A stretch of DNA of 64,000 nt from Xanthobacteraceae bacterium (GTDB lineage: Bacteria; Pseudomonadota; Alphaproteobacteria; Rhizobiales; Xanthobacteraceae), in contig JASHOR010000099.1 in the NCBI GenBank assembly GCA_030041005.1, positions 1 to 64,000 on the forward strand, in the 5' to 3' direction. The position numbers and the translations under genes are program-made. How positions within the stretch are numbered: position 1 is the first letter of the stretch; each line of letters starts with the position of its first letter. The notes under the pieces were generated by a model that was not told the DNA's origin, ran no database searches, and worked only from the letters and a program-made list of their open reading frames with translations. Shown here in pieces: positions 32,876 to 39,894 of this stretch.

Positions 32876-34027
32876 ATGGATTTCGGCTTCACCGACGAAC
32901 AGAACCTGCTGCGCGAGAGCGTGCGCAGACTGATGCAAAAACACGCGCCGCCCGAATACGTGCGCCAGCACGATCGCGAGCGCACTTATCCGGAGGAGTT
33001 GTTCCAGGCTTGCGCGGCGGCGGGCCTGCTGGCCTTGCCGTTCCCTGAGGATTACGGCGGCGCCGGCGGCAGTTTGCTCGACATGACGATCGTCGCTGAA
33101 GAGATCGCGCGCGTGTCCGCCGATCTGGTGATGGCCTATACGGGCAACATCTTTTGCGGCCTCAATCTTTTGCGCAAGGGTACCGAGGAACAGAAGCGCT
33201 GCTGGCTGCCGAAGCTGTTCGCCGGAGAAATCAAGTTCTCAATCTCGATGTCGGAGCCCGACGCCGGCTCCGACATCGGCGCCATGCGCACCACGGCGGT
33301 GCGCGACGGCAACGAATGGATCATCAATGGCCAGAAAATCTGGGCGTCGATGGCGGGCGCGAAGAACAACGTCATCAATCTTTATGTGAAGACGGACCCA
33401 GGGGCGCATTACCGGCAGGGCCTGTCGCTGTTTCTGGTCGACAGCGACGCGCCGGGGCTGACGCTTCGCAAGCTTGACATGCTCGGTCGCCGCGCCACCG
33501 GTACCTACGAACTGACGTTCGATCGCGTGCGCGTGCCGCCGGATCGGTTGGTCGGCGGCGAAAACAAGGGCTGGGACGTGGTGATGTCGGGGCTGCAGGT
33601 GGAACGCGCCACCTCCAGCGCCGGCAATGTCGGCGCCGCGCAGGGTGTCGTCGATCTCGCCGTACAGTACGCCAAGGAGCGCAAGCAATTCGGCCGTGCA
33701 ATCGGCGCCAATCAGGCGATCGCCCACATGCTCGCGGACATGGCAACCGAGGTCGAGGCCGCACGCACCCTGATGTGGCGCGCAGCCTGGCTCGCGAGCA
33801 ATGGGCACGACGCGCTCCGCGAGATCAGCATGGCGAAGCTGTTCACCTCGGAGACCTACGTCAAGGTCGCCAACCTCGGCATGCAGGTGTTCGGCGCCTT
33901 CGGCTATTGCGCCGAGTTCGACATGGAACGTCACTACCGCGATGCTCGCGCCGCGACCATCGCCGCCGGAACATCGCAAATTCAGCGGAACCTGATTGCC
34001 AATCTGATGGGGCTGAAGCTGCAGTAG
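32876..34027 (+). CDS. acyl-CoA dehydrogenase family protein
   Basis: MDFGFTDEQNLLRESVRRLMQKHAPPEYVR..., FSISMSEPDAGSDIGAMRT, QVFGAFGYCAEFDMERHYRDARAATIAAGTSQIQRNLIA. Track ORF start at 31031 rejected. Confidence 0.94.
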   Translation: MDFGFTDEQNLLRESVRRLMQKHAPPEYVRQHDRERTYPEELFQACAAAGLLALPFPEDYGGAGGSLLDMTIVAEEIARVSADLVMAYTGNIFCGLNLLRKGTEEQKRCWLPKLFAGEIKFSISMSEPDAGSDIGAMRTTAVRDGNEWIINGQKIWASMAGAKNNVINLYVKTDPGAHYRQGLSLFLVDSDAPGLTLRKLDMLGRRATGTYELTFDRVRVPPDRLVGGENKGWDVVMSGLQVERATSSAGNVGAAQGVVDLAVQYAKERKQFGRAIGANQAIAHMLADMATEVEAARTLMWRAAWLASNGHDALREISMAKLFTSETYVKVANLGMQVFGAFGYCAEFDMERHYRDARAATIAAGTSQIQRNLIANLMGLKLQ

Positions 34028-34151
34028 CTGGCGGCGAACAGCAGGCAGATTTGATGTGGAACCAAACAGGCGCTTTGCCGCATCCGATAACACTAATGCG
34101 TGATCCGCATTGCATCTGCGGAGCGCGCGCTTATTTTGTGCATATTAGGCC

Positions 34152-34261
34152 GGCCGGGCGGCTCCCCATCCCCCGACACCCCGCCGCCCGGTCCCATAAG
34201 CCTAAGTTGAGGCAACGACTCAAAGAACCCCAGGCGCGTAACCTGCTTGGGGTTCTTTTTT
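34152..34261 (+). ncRNA. candidate intergenic small RNA: three hairpins, C-rich loop, intrinsic terminator
   Basis: Stem CCGGGCGGC (34154-34162)/GCCGCCCGG (34183-34191) with loop TCCCCATCCCCCGACACCCC; TTGAG/CTCAA (34207-34223); terminator AAGAACCCCA (34223-34232)/TGGGGTTCTT (34248-34257) followed by T6. Confidence 0.5.
34223..34261 (+). terminator. intrinsic (rho-independent) terminator
   Basis: 10-bp stem AAGAACCCCA/TGGGGTTCTT plus T tract ending at 34261. Confidence 0.8.
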
Positions 34262-34301
34262 GTGGCCAACGTGTAACGAAAGCGTACGTTTCTGAAATTG
34301 C

Positions 34302-37300
34302 TTAGTATTTTACCAGATCCGAAAGCAGGCTGGCGGCCACGGTGAGCTTCGAAAGGGTCAATCCGGAACCGGCAATCTCGGCGATGGCACCGCGGATTCG
34401 CTCCACCTCGCCCTGACGCGGCTTGATCCAGGCCTCGACAGCCTCTGCACCCACCGTACCGTTGCCGACCATGGTCGCTGCCAGGCGGCGTTCCGCGTCA
34501 CCGATCGAGTCCCGCGCTCGATCAAGCGCCAATCGATCAAAATAATCGGCAACCGGAATGCTGCTCGCCGCGCTGGCGATGCGGTCGAGGCGAAAGAACG
34601 CCCCCGCCGCGAAGAACGTCGCGGCAACGTCCGCGACCGGCTTTTTGGTGCGGTCGGCAACCAACACGATGTCTGGTGCGGCGGCGAGCGGACCGATATC
34701 GGCCATGCGGGCGGCAAGCGTGTCGGGAACTCCGGAACTCGCTAATTCCCTGCGGCGCGCGGCGCGCGTCTGCGATGGACCCTCGGGCAGAACGGCGTCC
34801 AGGCAAGCGGCCACGGCGGCAACGCCGTCGCGATAGTGGCTCACCGTCTCCGCCAAGCCTCTTGAAAGATCGGCATTGCGCAGGAACCACACCATCCTGT
34901 CGAGCAGGAGGTCCTGAACCGCCGCATAGAGGCCGAGCTGCACTTTTCCGGGCAGCCGGTTGTCCAATTCATCGATGGCGGTATTCAGCGCGGTCATTTC
35001 ATAGCTGTCGCGGACCGCAGCGAAAGCCTTGGCGATCGCCGCCGGCCCGGCGCCAGTCTGATCCATGATGCGGACGACGACCGAAGCGCCGCCGCGATTG
35101 ATCATCGAATTGGCAAGCCGGGTGGCAATGATTTCGCGGCGCAGCCGGTGATGGTCGAGCGCATCCGGAAAGCGCTGGGCAATCGCCTTCGGGAAATAGC
35201 GGGTCATTTCGCCGGAGAGATACGGATCGTCCGGTACCGGGGAGTCCAGCAGATCGTCGTAAAGCGAGAGCTTGGCGTAGGCGAGCAGGACCGACAGCTC
35301 CGGCCGCGTGAATGGCTGCGCGCGGCGGCGGCGCTCGGTCAGCGCCATGTCATCCGGCAAGTACTCGACCGCGCGGTCGAGCAGCCCGCGGGATTCCAGC
35401 GTCTGCATCAGCCGCTGCAGGAAGCCGAAATCCTCCATGCCGCGCCGCTCCGACAGCGACAAGGCGAGCGGCTGCAGAAAATTGTTGCGCAGCACCAGGC
35501 TCGCGACCTCGTCCGTCATCTGCGCCAGCAGCGCATTGCGTTCCGCCATGGCGAGGCGGCCATCGCGCAACGGGACGGACAGCGCAATCTTGATGTTTAC
35601 CTCCATGTCGGAGGTATTGACGCCGGCCGAATTGTCGATGGCGTCGGTATTGAGGCGGATGCCGCGGAAGGCGACCTCGATGCGGCCGCGCTGGGTCATG
35701 CCGAGATTGGCGCCCTCGCCGATGACTTTGCAGCGCAAATCCTTGGCGGCCACGCGCACGGGGTCGTTGGCACGGTCGCCAACCGACTCGTCGGTCTCGT
35801 CTGCGGACCGCACGTAGGTGCCGATGCCGCCGAAAAACAACAGATCGACCGGCGCCGTCAGGATGGCGCGAATAAGCTCCTGCGGAGTCAGGCGCTCGGC
35901 CACGCCGAACAGCTTCTGAGCCTGCGCCGAGAGCTGGATCTCCTTGTGCGCGCGCGAATAGATGCCGCCGCCCGCCGATATCAGCGATTTGTCGAAATCC
36001 TGCCAACTCGAACGCGGCAGGTCGAACAGCCGCCGGCGCTCGACGAACGTGCGCTCGGAGTCCGGATCGGGATCGATGAAAATGTCGCGATGGTCGAAGG
36101 CGGCGACCAGCTTCATCGTTTTTTCCCGCAGCGCGCCGTTGCCGAACACGTCGCCCGACATGTCGCCGATGCCGACTGCCGTGAACGGCGTCGCGTGGAT
36201 GTTGATGTCCATCTCGCGGAAATGGCGCTTGACCGATTCCCAGGCGCCGCGCGCGGTGATGCCGATCTTCTTGTGGTCGTACCCCGCCGATCCGCCGGAA
36301 GCGAACGCATCGCCGAGCCAATAGTCATGGGCGATGGCGAGTTCGTTGGCGATGTCGGAGAAGGTCGCCGTGCCCTTGTCGGCCGCAACGACCAGATAAG
36401 GATCGTCGCCCTCGTAGCGCAGAACGTCTCGCGGCGGGATCACGCCGGTGGTGCCGGTGCCGATATTGTCGGTAATGTCGAGCAGCGTCGATATGAACAT
36501 CTTGTAGGTGGCGACGCCTTCGGCCTGAATAGCATCGCGCGTCCAGCCCGGCTTCAGATATTTCGGGACGAATCCGCCCTTGGCGCCGACCGGCACGATC
36601 ACCGCGTTTTTGACGTTCTGCGCCTTGACCAGACCAAGAACTTCGGTACGGAAATCCTGCGGCCGGTCGGACCAGCGGATGCCGCCGCGCGCCACCTTGC
36701 CGAAGCGCAGATGCACGGCCTCAAGCCGCGGCGAATAGACAAAGATTTCATAAAGCGGCCGCGGCAGCGGCATGCCATCGACCTTGCGGCTGGCAAACTT
36801 TATCGCGATGAGCTCTTTTGTCCGGCCGTCGCCGCCGAGCTGATAGAAGTTTGTGCGGATGGCCGCACTGACCGCGTTGACGAAGTGCCGCAGGATGCGG
36901 TCCTCGTCGAGGCTGTCTACTTCCCGCAATGCGGCTTCTATCGCCGCGGAAATTTCCGCCTGGCGGGCGCTGCGCTCGCTGCCGGACTGGGCAAGTCGCG
37001 GCGCGAATCGGGCGTGGAACAACGACACGATATCGGCGGCGATGGCGGCGTGTTTGCACAGCGTCGCCCACATGTAGTCTTGCGAATAGGGCACGCGGAT
37101 CTGGCGCAGATAGCGCGAAATGGTGCGGATCAGCGCGACGGCACGCCAATCGAGCCCGGCCGCAAGTACCAACGCGTTATAGCCGTCGTTTTCGGCGAGC
37201 CGATTCATGACCGCCAGGAAGCAGTCCTCCAGCAACCGCTCGCGCGCGGCAAGGTCGATCGGATCGCCTGAGGCATTCTCGATCTCCATGTCGTGGAACC

Positions 37301-39119
37301 ACACCTCCGGCCGGTCCTGCGGACGGATGTGGTAGGTGCGTTCGTCGACGACACGGAAGCCCATGTTTTCCAGCACCGGGACGCGCTCGGACAGCGAGAT
37401 CGGCCGGCTGGCGCTGAAAACCTTGAGCCCGGCGCGCGCCGGGCCGGCGCCACCCTGACGGTAAAGGTCGACCCCGAGCGGATGTTCGGACGAGAGCGCG
37501 CCGAGAACGCCGATGTCGCCGACCGCCGTCTCCGGCGGATAAACTTCGCGATAGTCGATCGGAAAGGCGTCGCGGTAGCGGGCAAAGAGTGCGCGCGCCG
37601 CCTCGGGCTCGTGCATGGCGGCGATCGCCTGATCGAGGCCGTCGACCCAGCTACGCACGATCTTTTCCACCGCGCGATCGAGCGATCGCCGATCGGGGTT
37701 CGGGGTCTCGCCCTCGTAGCGTTCGATGATGAAGTGGACGCGCACCAACGGACCTTCGGGAAAGAACGGGTAGAACGCGCGAACGCGTCCTTTGTAGACG
37801 TCGGCGAGATAGTCGCCGATCGCCGCTCTCATCCGGCCGTCGTAGCGTTCACGCGGCAGGTAGACGAGGATCGAGACGAAGCGGTCGAAGCGGTCGCGCC
37901 GCGGCAGCACGCGCACGCGCGGCCGTTCGTCGAGCTGAAGAATCGCCAGCGCGAATTGATAGAGCGTCTCTTCGTCGATCTGGAACAGCTCATCGCGCGG
38001 ATAAGTTTCCAGCACGTTGACCAGCGCCTTGCCGGAATGGCTGGCGGGATCGAACCCGGCACGGCGGATGACGGTGTCAACCTTGCGCCGCAGATACGGA
38101 ATCGCGCGGGTGGAACGCGTATAGGCGGTCGAGGTGAAAAGACCGCAGAACCGGCGCTCGCCAATGAGCCGGCCCTCCCCGTCGAAGCGCTTGACGCCGA
38201 TGAAATCCATGGCCGCGCGGCGGTGCACGCGCGAGCGGATCGCCGCCTTGGCGATGATGAGCAGTCGCGGTTCTTCCAGGAATTCGCGGATTTCAGGGGT
38301 GATGGTGACGAGCTGATTGCCGCGGCGCAGCAGCCGCATCTCGCGCGAGCGCAGGAGGCCGAGCCCGGTCTCGAACGCCGGCTGCAGCGCATGTTCGTTG
38401 TTCGTATAAGTGTAGTCGCGGGCGCCGAGCAGCGTGAAATTCTCTCCGGCCAGCCATTCGAGAAACTGGATGCCTTCGGCAATATCGGCCGCCGGCAGCG
38501 GCGGCGGGGTGTTGCGCAGGTCGGCGACGACCTCGCGGAGGCGCGCCAGCATCGGCCGCCAGTCCTCGACGCAGACCCGCACCTCGGCGAGGATGTCTTG
38601 CAGCGTCCGCACCAATTCGGCCCGCGTCGCGGGGTCTTCCAAGTCGCCGATGTGAATGTGAATGAAGCTTTCGCGTGGGCCGTCCCCCCTGTTCGTGCCC
38701 TTGAAGCGGACCAGGTTTCCGGCGGCGTCGCGTTCGATCGAAAAAACCGGATGGACCAGGAGCGAGATGGCAATGCCCCGTTCATGCAATTCGCTCGCCA
38801 CCGAATCGACCAGAAACGGCATGTCGTCGTTGACGATTTCCAGCACCGTCAGGGCGCGCGCCGTGGCGGCGTTGGCGAGCCGCACCTTGGGCTGACCGGG
38901 AGCGCGTTGCGCAATGAAACGCCAGGAGGAGGCCGCGATTGCCACCAGTTCATCCGGGCTGTAGCGCTCGAGGTCCTCGGGTATCGCCCGCTCGAACAGC
39001 TCGGCCAGGAATTCGGCAGGTACGCCGGGATCGTGCAATGCCAACATCGCCGCCGCGGCGCCGACGAGCCACTCGCTGCCGCCCTTGCCGCTAATGCGGG
39101 GACTTTCCTGAACGGTCAT
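34302..39119 (-). CDS. NAD-glutamate dehydrogenase (large, about 180 kDa type)
   Basis: 1606 codons; FKGTNRGDGPRESFIHIHIG, RWSDRPQDFRTEVLGLVKAQNVKNAVIVPVGAKGGFV, GEGANLGMTQRGRIE. Internal start MTVQESPRISGKG preferred over the track start. Confidence 0.93.
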   Translation of the reverse strand: MTVQESPRISGKGGSEWLVGAAAAMLALHDPGVPAEFLAELFERAIPEDLERYSPDELVAIAASSWRFIAQRAPGQPKVRLANAATARALTVLEIVNDDMPFLVDSVASELHERGIAISLLVHPVFSIERDAAGNLVRFKGTNRGDGPRESFIHIHIGDLEDPATRAELVRTLQDILAEVRVCVEDWRPMLARLREVVADLRNTPPPLPAADIAEGIQFLEWLAGENFTLLGARDYTYTNNEHALQPAFETGLGLLRSREMRLLRRGNQLVTITPEIREFLEEPRLLIIAKAAIRSRVHRRAAMDFIGVKRFDGEGRLIGERRFCGLFTSTAYTRSTRAIPYLRRKVDTVIRRAGFDPASHSGKALVNVLETYPRDELFQIDEETLYQFALAILQLDERPRVRVLPRRDRFDRFVSILVYLPRERYDGRMRAAIGDYLADVYKGRVRAFYPFFPEGPLVRVHFIIERYEGETPNPDRRSLDRAVEKIVRSWVDGLDQAIAAMHEPEAARALFARYRDAFPIDYREVYPPETAVGDIGVLGALSSEHPLGVDLYRQGGAGPARAGLKVFSASRPISLSERVPVLENMGFRVVDERTYHIRPQDRPEVWFHDMEIENASGDPIDLAARERLLEDCFLAVMNRLAENDGYNALVLAAGLDWRAVALIRTISRYLRQIRVPYSQDYMWATLCKHAAIAADIVSLFHARFAPRLAQSGSERSARQAEISAAIEAALREVDSLDEDRILRHFVNAVSAAIRTNFYQLGGDGRTKELIAIKFASRKVDGMPLPRPLYEIFVYSPRLEAVHLRFGKVARGGIRWSDRPQDFRTEVLGLVKAQNVKNAVIVPVGAKGGFVPKYLKPGWTRDAIQAEGVATYKMFISTLLDITDNIGTGTTGVIPPRDVLRYEGDDPYLVVAADKGTATFSDIANELAIAHDYWLGDAFASGGSAGYDHKKIGITARGAWESVKRHFREMDINIHATPFTAVGIGDMSGDVFGNGALREKTMKLVAAFDHRDIFIDPDPDSERTFVERRRLFDLPRSSWQDFDKSLISAGGGIYSRAHKEIQLSAQAQKLFGVAERLTPQELIRAILTAPVDLLFFGGIGTYVRSADETDESVGDRANDPVRVAAKDLRCKVIGEGANLGMTQRGRIEVAFRGIRLNTDAIDNSAGVNTSDMEVNIKIALSVPLRDGRLAMAERNALLAQMTDEVASLVLRNNFLQPLALSLSERRGMEDFGFLQRLMQTLESRGLLDRAVEYLPDDMALTERRRRAQPFTRPELSVLLAYAKLSLYDDLLDSPVPDDPYLSGEMTRYFPKAIAQRFPDALDHHRLRREIIATRLANSMINRGGASVVVRIMDQTGAGPAAIAKAFAAVRDSYEMTALNTAIDELDNRLPGKVQLGLYAAVQDLLLDRMVWFLRNADLSRGLAETVSHYRDGVAAVAACLDAVLPEGPSQTRAARRRELASSGVPDTLAARMADIGPLAAAPDIVLVADRTKKPVADVAATFFAAGAFFRLDRIASAASSIPVADYFDRLALDRARDSIGDAERRLAATMVGNGTVGAEAVEAWIKPRQGEVERIRGAIAEIAGSGLTLSKLTVAASLLSDLVKY

Positions 39120-39258
39120 GCTCCCCTCCGTCGGCCAGTCGATCCGAATCTTTGCGAATATTACCCACGCGGCGCGCACATCCGCTACAGCGACGTTTAT
39201 AATCGCCTGCATCAGGCGTCGCCCACGGCGGCATGACACTAACGCAGAGGAAGCCGAC

Positions 39259-39894
39259 ATGGCCAAGCGCAACAACAAACGCGTTGCGGCGACCTCCGCC
39301 GCAACTGCTCGCCCCGGTGCGGCGGCTGGCGACGACACCGCGATCACCGCGCTGACGCTCGCTGCGGCACCGCTGTCACCCGAGATGGCGGCCTATTTCG
39401 CAAAATGCCAGGAAAAGCTCGGCTTCGTGCCGAACGTCCTCAAGGCCCATGCGTTCGATATGGCCAAACTCTCCGCGTTCGCGGCCATGTACAACGACCT
39501 GATGCTGGCGCCGTCTGGCCTGAGCAAGCTCGAACGCGAGATGATCGCCGTTGCGGTCTCGGCGCAGAACCGCTGCTACTACTGCCTCGTCGCCCATGGC
39601 GCCGCGGTCCGGGCGCTTTCCGGCGACCCGGTACTCGGCGAATTGATGGTGATGAACTTTCGCGCGGCGAGGCTGTCGCAGCGCGAACGCGCCATGCTCG
39701 ATTTCACCGTCAAGCTGACCGCGGAGCCATGGTTGATCGGGGAGACGGACCGGGAAGCGCTTCGTCGCGCCGGCTTTTCCGATCGCGACATCTGGGATAT
39801 CGCGGCCGTCGCCGGCTTCTTCAACATGTCCAACCGCGTGGCTTCCGCCGTCGATATGCGGCCAAACAGCGTTTATCACGGGCAAAATCGATAA
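39259..39894 (+). CDS. carboxymuconolactone decarboxylase/AhpD-like, peroxidase-related enzyme
   Basis: LEREMIAVAVSAQNRCYYCLVAHGAAVRAL (CxxC-x3-H) and FSDRDIWDIAAVAGFFNMSNRVASAVDMRPN. Confidence 0.88.
   Translation: MAKRNNKRVAATSAATARPGAAAGDDTAITALTLAAAPLSPEMAAYFAKCQEKLGFVPNVLKAHAFDMAKLSAFAAMYNDLMLAPSGLSKLEREMIAVAVSAQNRCYYCLVAHGAAVRALSGDPVLGELMVMNFRAARLSQRERAMLDFTVKLTAEPWLIGETDREALRRAGFSDRDIWDIAAVAGFFNMSNRVASAVDMRPNSVYHGQNR

Follow-up and report, generated by a model that had tools for sequence, protein, structure and literature searches.

The window, a 64,000-nucleotide stretch of DNA from a Xanthobacteraceae bacterium, very probably contains a stand-alone gene for a trans-acting small RNA, whose C-rich loop would pair with G-rich stretches of mRNA. 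The predicted sRNA is about 118 nt long (34144-34261, plus strand); R1, a covariance model derived from 29 copies, describes it, and it is present in 20/20 genomes of the genus. Judged by its sequence, it represents an sRNA family not described before, and one of a functional type that is already known. The first-pass annotation had proposed an unannotated sRNA here. A predicted promoter of its own, the C-rich loop, the terminator and genus-wide conservation all bear this out, but the proposed second hairpin and the pairing with Shine-Dalgarno regions are not supported.

The gene lies between an acyl-CoA dehydrogenase (ACAD) gene on the plus strand, with its 3′ end at 34027, and a gene of an NAD-type glutamate dehydrogenase (GDH) on the minus strand (34302-39347). 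It is independent of both neighbours. The placement in the gap between these convergent genes was correctly noted, but the ACAD neighbourhood is not conserved: in the flanks examined in the 20 genus genomes, ACAD stands beside the element only in the window's own genome. The 3′ end of GDH adjoins the sRNA gene in 18/20. An origin as a piece of the ACAD 3′ UTR is ruled out, since ACAD is not common to the other genus loci.

The RNA is predicted to fold into an outer helix, a spoon-shaped hairpin, a middle element and an intrinsic terminator. The outer helix joins UUAGGC (34145-34150) to GCCUAA (34200-34205) with high pairing probability, and 88.5% of alignment cells are paired. It had been missed before, and because it belongs to the RNA, the expected transcript length becomes about 118 nt instead of 100-110 nt. 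Inside it, the spoon hairpin (34152-34193; 95.8% of cells paired) has an 11-bp GC stem, with arms 34152-34162 and 34183-34193 enclosing the 20-nt C-rich loop UCCCCAUCCCCCGACACCCC (34163-34182), the presumed seed. The terminator (34223-34261; 97.4% of cells paired) consists of a stem-loop at 34223-34257 and a T tract that runs to 34261. Right after the tract, GTGGC at 34262-34266 is conserved in most copies, paralogs included. The folding energy of the 156-nt region is -69.3 kcal/mol; its shuffles give -53.1 ± 4.1 (z -3.9; 0/200 as good).

All three hairpins drawn in the first-pass annotation are found in the sequence. The second one, TTGAG-GCAACGA-CTCAA, exists in the window copy, but other copies do not keep the CTCAA side. 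What is conserved is a middle element, AAGCCUAAGUUGAGGCAAC(R)ACU (34200-34220), with mutually exclusive pairings; in place of the second hairpin, the pairings AGUUG/CRACU and GCCU/AGGC are conserved. Neither candidate pairing shows any compensatory double change in the alignment of 29 sequences. Copies linked to GDH hardly vary in AAGCCUAAGUUGAGGCAAC, with 100% identity over AAGCCT and TGAGGCAAC; the element may therefore serve as a second site of contact, or as a switch in which GCCU pairs either with the 5′ end or with AGGC.

Upstream of the RNA we find a conserved promoter-like block. The element ACACTAAYGCGTGATC (34090-34105, plus strand) is near-invariant in 19 aligned genus copies, with 84-91% identity over a background of 22-34%, and could be a regulator site, possibly for an activator; this 16-mer has a single exact copy in its own genome, where approximate matches with two mismatches occur at three further places. 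It is followed by a predicted -35 box, TTGCAT (34110-34115), conserved in the alignment, and a predicted -10 box, TATTTT (34132-34137), kept across orthologs as TAT(N)T(N), with a 16-nt spacer in most copies. The AT-rich stretch suspected of holding a -10 element does therefore contain a conserved one. From the -10 spacing, transcription would start at about 34142-34145. A strict sigma-70 scan of the region reports no promoter, the -35 box included, so the promoter call rests on conservation. With a promoter-like block and a co-varying terminator of its own, the element has both sequence features of a stand-alone sRNA.

Conservation has sharp borders, coinciding with the promoter and the terminator. 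Identity is 22-34% upstream, 83-91% in the promoter block and 72-99% inside the RNA; directly 3′ of it, identity is back to 22-34%, then rises in the coding end of GDH. No part is more constant than the loop core CCCCAU-CCCCCGACACC, where identity is about 95% among orthologs and among paralogs alike, against 86% (orthologs) and 79% (paralogs) for the stem. The exposure of the C-rich loop claimed earlier agrees with its prediction as almost wholly unpaired; together with its constancy, this would suit a seed role. One-base indels in the loop, and others in the spacer, between orthologs break any reading frame, ruling out a coding ORF.

The expected covariance in related genomes is also found. 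In a MAFFT alignment of 29 sequences (A2), not fitted to any structure, 93.4% of cells pair and 11/27 pairs carry double changes, a result that 0/500 shuffles equal; slid structures, used as a control, give only 2-4 such pairs. The compensatory pairs fall in the spoon stem (5 of 9 counted), the terminator (4/8) and the outer helix (2).

By blastn among 60 relatives, the element occurs in 19/19 of the remaining genus genomes and in 0/41 from outside the genus; most genomes compared are MAGs. The covariance model search extends the family to two genomes of one other genus, g8, of the same family. There the copies lie between metW and a MOSC gene and are without the middle element; the g8 copy is, on alignment, clearly homologous to the window RNA, as 0/5000 random spoons give an alignment this good. 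When 84,980 species were scanned with a pattern, 25 matches came up, several of them the same contigs as genus copies; nearly all are MAGs, named as Xanthobacteraceae, Hyphomicrobiales, Hyphomicrobiaceae or Proteobacteria. Pattern matches in Thiobacillaceae, Myxococcus and viruses receive no support from the covariance model, and we take them as chance. Rfam assigns no family in the window at the gathering threshold, and at a permissive threshold the best sub-threshold hit has E 2.1; the RNA is thus not placed in a known terminator or leader family, the check asked for earlier.

Each genome holds one to five copies at varied loci. The paralogs, away from GDH, keep the loop, the stems and the terminator. 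At one paralog locus (L071:4745-4591, minus strand), two C-loop hairpins stand in tandem with one terminator, behind ACACTAACGCGTGATC, and this locus is preceded by the same promoter element as the window RNA.

A possible but doubtful refinement of the stand-alone sRNA reading, rather than its opposite, is that the RNA originated as a GsrN-type stress sRNA of the sigma-EcfG regulon and moved beside GDH under another promoter. It stems from a second model, which matches weakly in many g58 and g11 genomes; in these two genera we find spoon RNAs of about 80 nt with a C-loop, CUCCCCCCUUACCCCCCGAA, and a terminator (L182-L184, L186-L190, L193-L215). GGAAC-N17/18-GTT, the form of sigma-EcfG promoter given for GsrN (PMC5869019), stands just upstream in 24/24 distinct g58/g11 spoon sequences, which makes these RNAs candidate GsrN counterparts. 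Rfam gives no match at the four loci scanned. Their neighbours, where read, are a long ORF (SMC from its sequence) and, in most, a LemA gene.

The evidence that these spoons and the window RNA are homologous is no more than suggestive: the 5′ half of the g58/g11 RNAs, GCCGGGCGGCUCCCC, agrees with the window RNA, as does CCCCCGA, and under the reciprocal, EcfG-type model genus copies reach up to 40 bits. However, the same model gives many plain terminators 25-32 bits, returning mostly generic terminators across the order, and the similarity between the spoons has p about 0.008 against random C-loop spoons, uncorrected for the search. The loci also differ (GDH versus SMC/LemA). The window copy and almost all genus copies have no GGAAC-N15-18-GTT upstream; isolated EcfG-like matches do occur at three genus loci, at too great a distance upstream or at a copy that is itself doubtful. 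Nor is the window locus, between ACAD and NAD-GDH, near ecfG, nepR or phyR. Tentatively, then, one may imagine an undescribed, Xanthobacteraceae-wide family of C-tract spoon sRNAs, counterpart of GsrN, that would be a sigma-EcfG stress output in the sister genera; here its seed module would have been relocated beside GDH, gained the outer helix and the middle element, been duplicated, and come under a promoter of housekeeping type that carries a new regulator site. If true, the link would show how a stress-response sRNA gets rewired, and would provide candidate GsrN counterparts outside Caulobacteraceae and Rhizobiaceae.

The convergent position by GDH, kept in 18/20 genomes, could instead point to a cis-acting RNA, an antisense or 3′-end regulator of the GDH transcript. 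This is very unlikely: the identity of 22-34% between the terminator and GDH means that there is no conserved overlap with GDH, and the paralogs are not near it. A reading of the element as nothing more than a bidirectional terminator for both genes, its upstream hairpins being decoration, might draw on its location between convergent genes and on one terminator-like site that the terminator scan gave on the minus strand. We find this highly improbable, because the loop, the outer helix and the promoter-like block are conserved far beyond the needs of a terminator, all parts are kept in paralogs away from GDH, and the other genus loci do not share ACAD as a neighbour. A small mobile or repetitive (REP-like) element, copied around the genome to its varied loci, can practically be dismissed given the low copy number, the fixed GDH-linked ortholog, the promoter with its single-copy regulator site and the compensatory stem changes.

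For the stand-alone sRNA, we infer transcription, regulation and target pairing from the sequence as follows. RNA polymerase with a housekeeping sigma factor would start at about 34144, from a promoter carrying the putative upstream regulator site, and would stop at the sRNA's own intrinsic terminator. The stable spoon would present CCCCAUCCCCC as a pre-ordered single-stranded seed, which would pair with G-rich stretches in mRNA leaders and so alter translation or stability of the mRNA, as with GsrN, PmaR and sX13.

Exact 11-nt complements of the loop outside the gene are few in the 20 genomes, near the reversed-pattern control, with no gene in common. The earlier claim that the loop pairs with Shine-Dalgarno regions fares poorly: the loop has no CCUCC core, and partial-loop sites before ATG are not enriched, GTCGGGGGA-N-ATG occurring 49 times versus 69 for the permuted control of the same composition, TGCGGGGGA-N-ATG. 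The rise over the reversed control therefore reflects ordinary G-rich ribosome-binding sites. Both tests are blind to seeds of 6-8 nt.

A well-supported sRNA family is thereby added to a large group of soil bacteria for which, to our knowledge, almost no regulatory RNA is described. Its C-tract loop hardly varies, even though the stems, the promoter and the place in the genome do.

Other C-loop hairpins turned up besides. In genus g107 (family f23; L075, L174-L178), a hairpin CAGGCAGU-[ACUUCCCCCCCAUCCCCUGCAAACA]-ACUGCCUG with a terminator occurs in 7/21 genomes, its sequence being unrelated to that of the window RNA (p 0.5); L178 holds two small ORFs (...SNVTVIEKN...VVEEC...), each followed by a hairpin of this type. 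In one more family, f14 (L228:1501-1600, minus strand), there is a spoon hairpin CCGGGCGUAUUCCCCCCGUCCCCCGGACGUCCGG with a terminator after it.

Among known systems, the Rhizobiales anti-Shine-Dalgarno sRNAs SmelA075/SmelA099 and NfeR1, with the loop motif CCUCCUCCC (PMC3927594, PMC10746234), resemble the window RNA in their conserved C-rich hairpin loops and more variable stems, and NfeR1 likewise has an upstream regulator site, near -70 (PMC3927594, PMC10746234). They differ in their CCUCC loop core, absent from the window RNA (CCCCAUCCCCCGACACC); the CCUCCUCCC motif is absent from its loop, which is constant across copies. GsrN of Caulobacter pairs a six-C tract with G-rich mRNA leaders and activates katG; its homologs found by BLASTn are limited to Caulobacteraceae and usually lie near ecfG/phyR, C. 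crescentus gsrN being an exception (PMC5869019). Both RNAs are alphaproteobacterial and family-restricted by sequence, with an exposed C-rich loop as the most conserved part; compared by description, GsrN has a sigma-EcfG promoter (PMC5869019), and the window RNA a sigma-70-like one, by GDH. PmaR, known only from Agrobacterium and one closely related Rhizobium, is a spoon with a long stem and a single-stranded loop of several C-rich tracts (PMC6234868); by description it shares the spoon shape, the C-rich loop and the narrow distribution. The Hfq-independent sX13 of Xanthomonas is a repressor of mRNAs that carry G-rich motifs close to the start codon (PMC3771888). It too has stable stems, and its apical C4/C5 loops act on G-rich motifs; as it is gammaproteobacterial and has three C-loops, this is analogy and not homology. 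By such analogies, the window RNA would act most like GsrN, PmaR or sX13, and not like the CCUCC anti-Shine-Dalgarno families.
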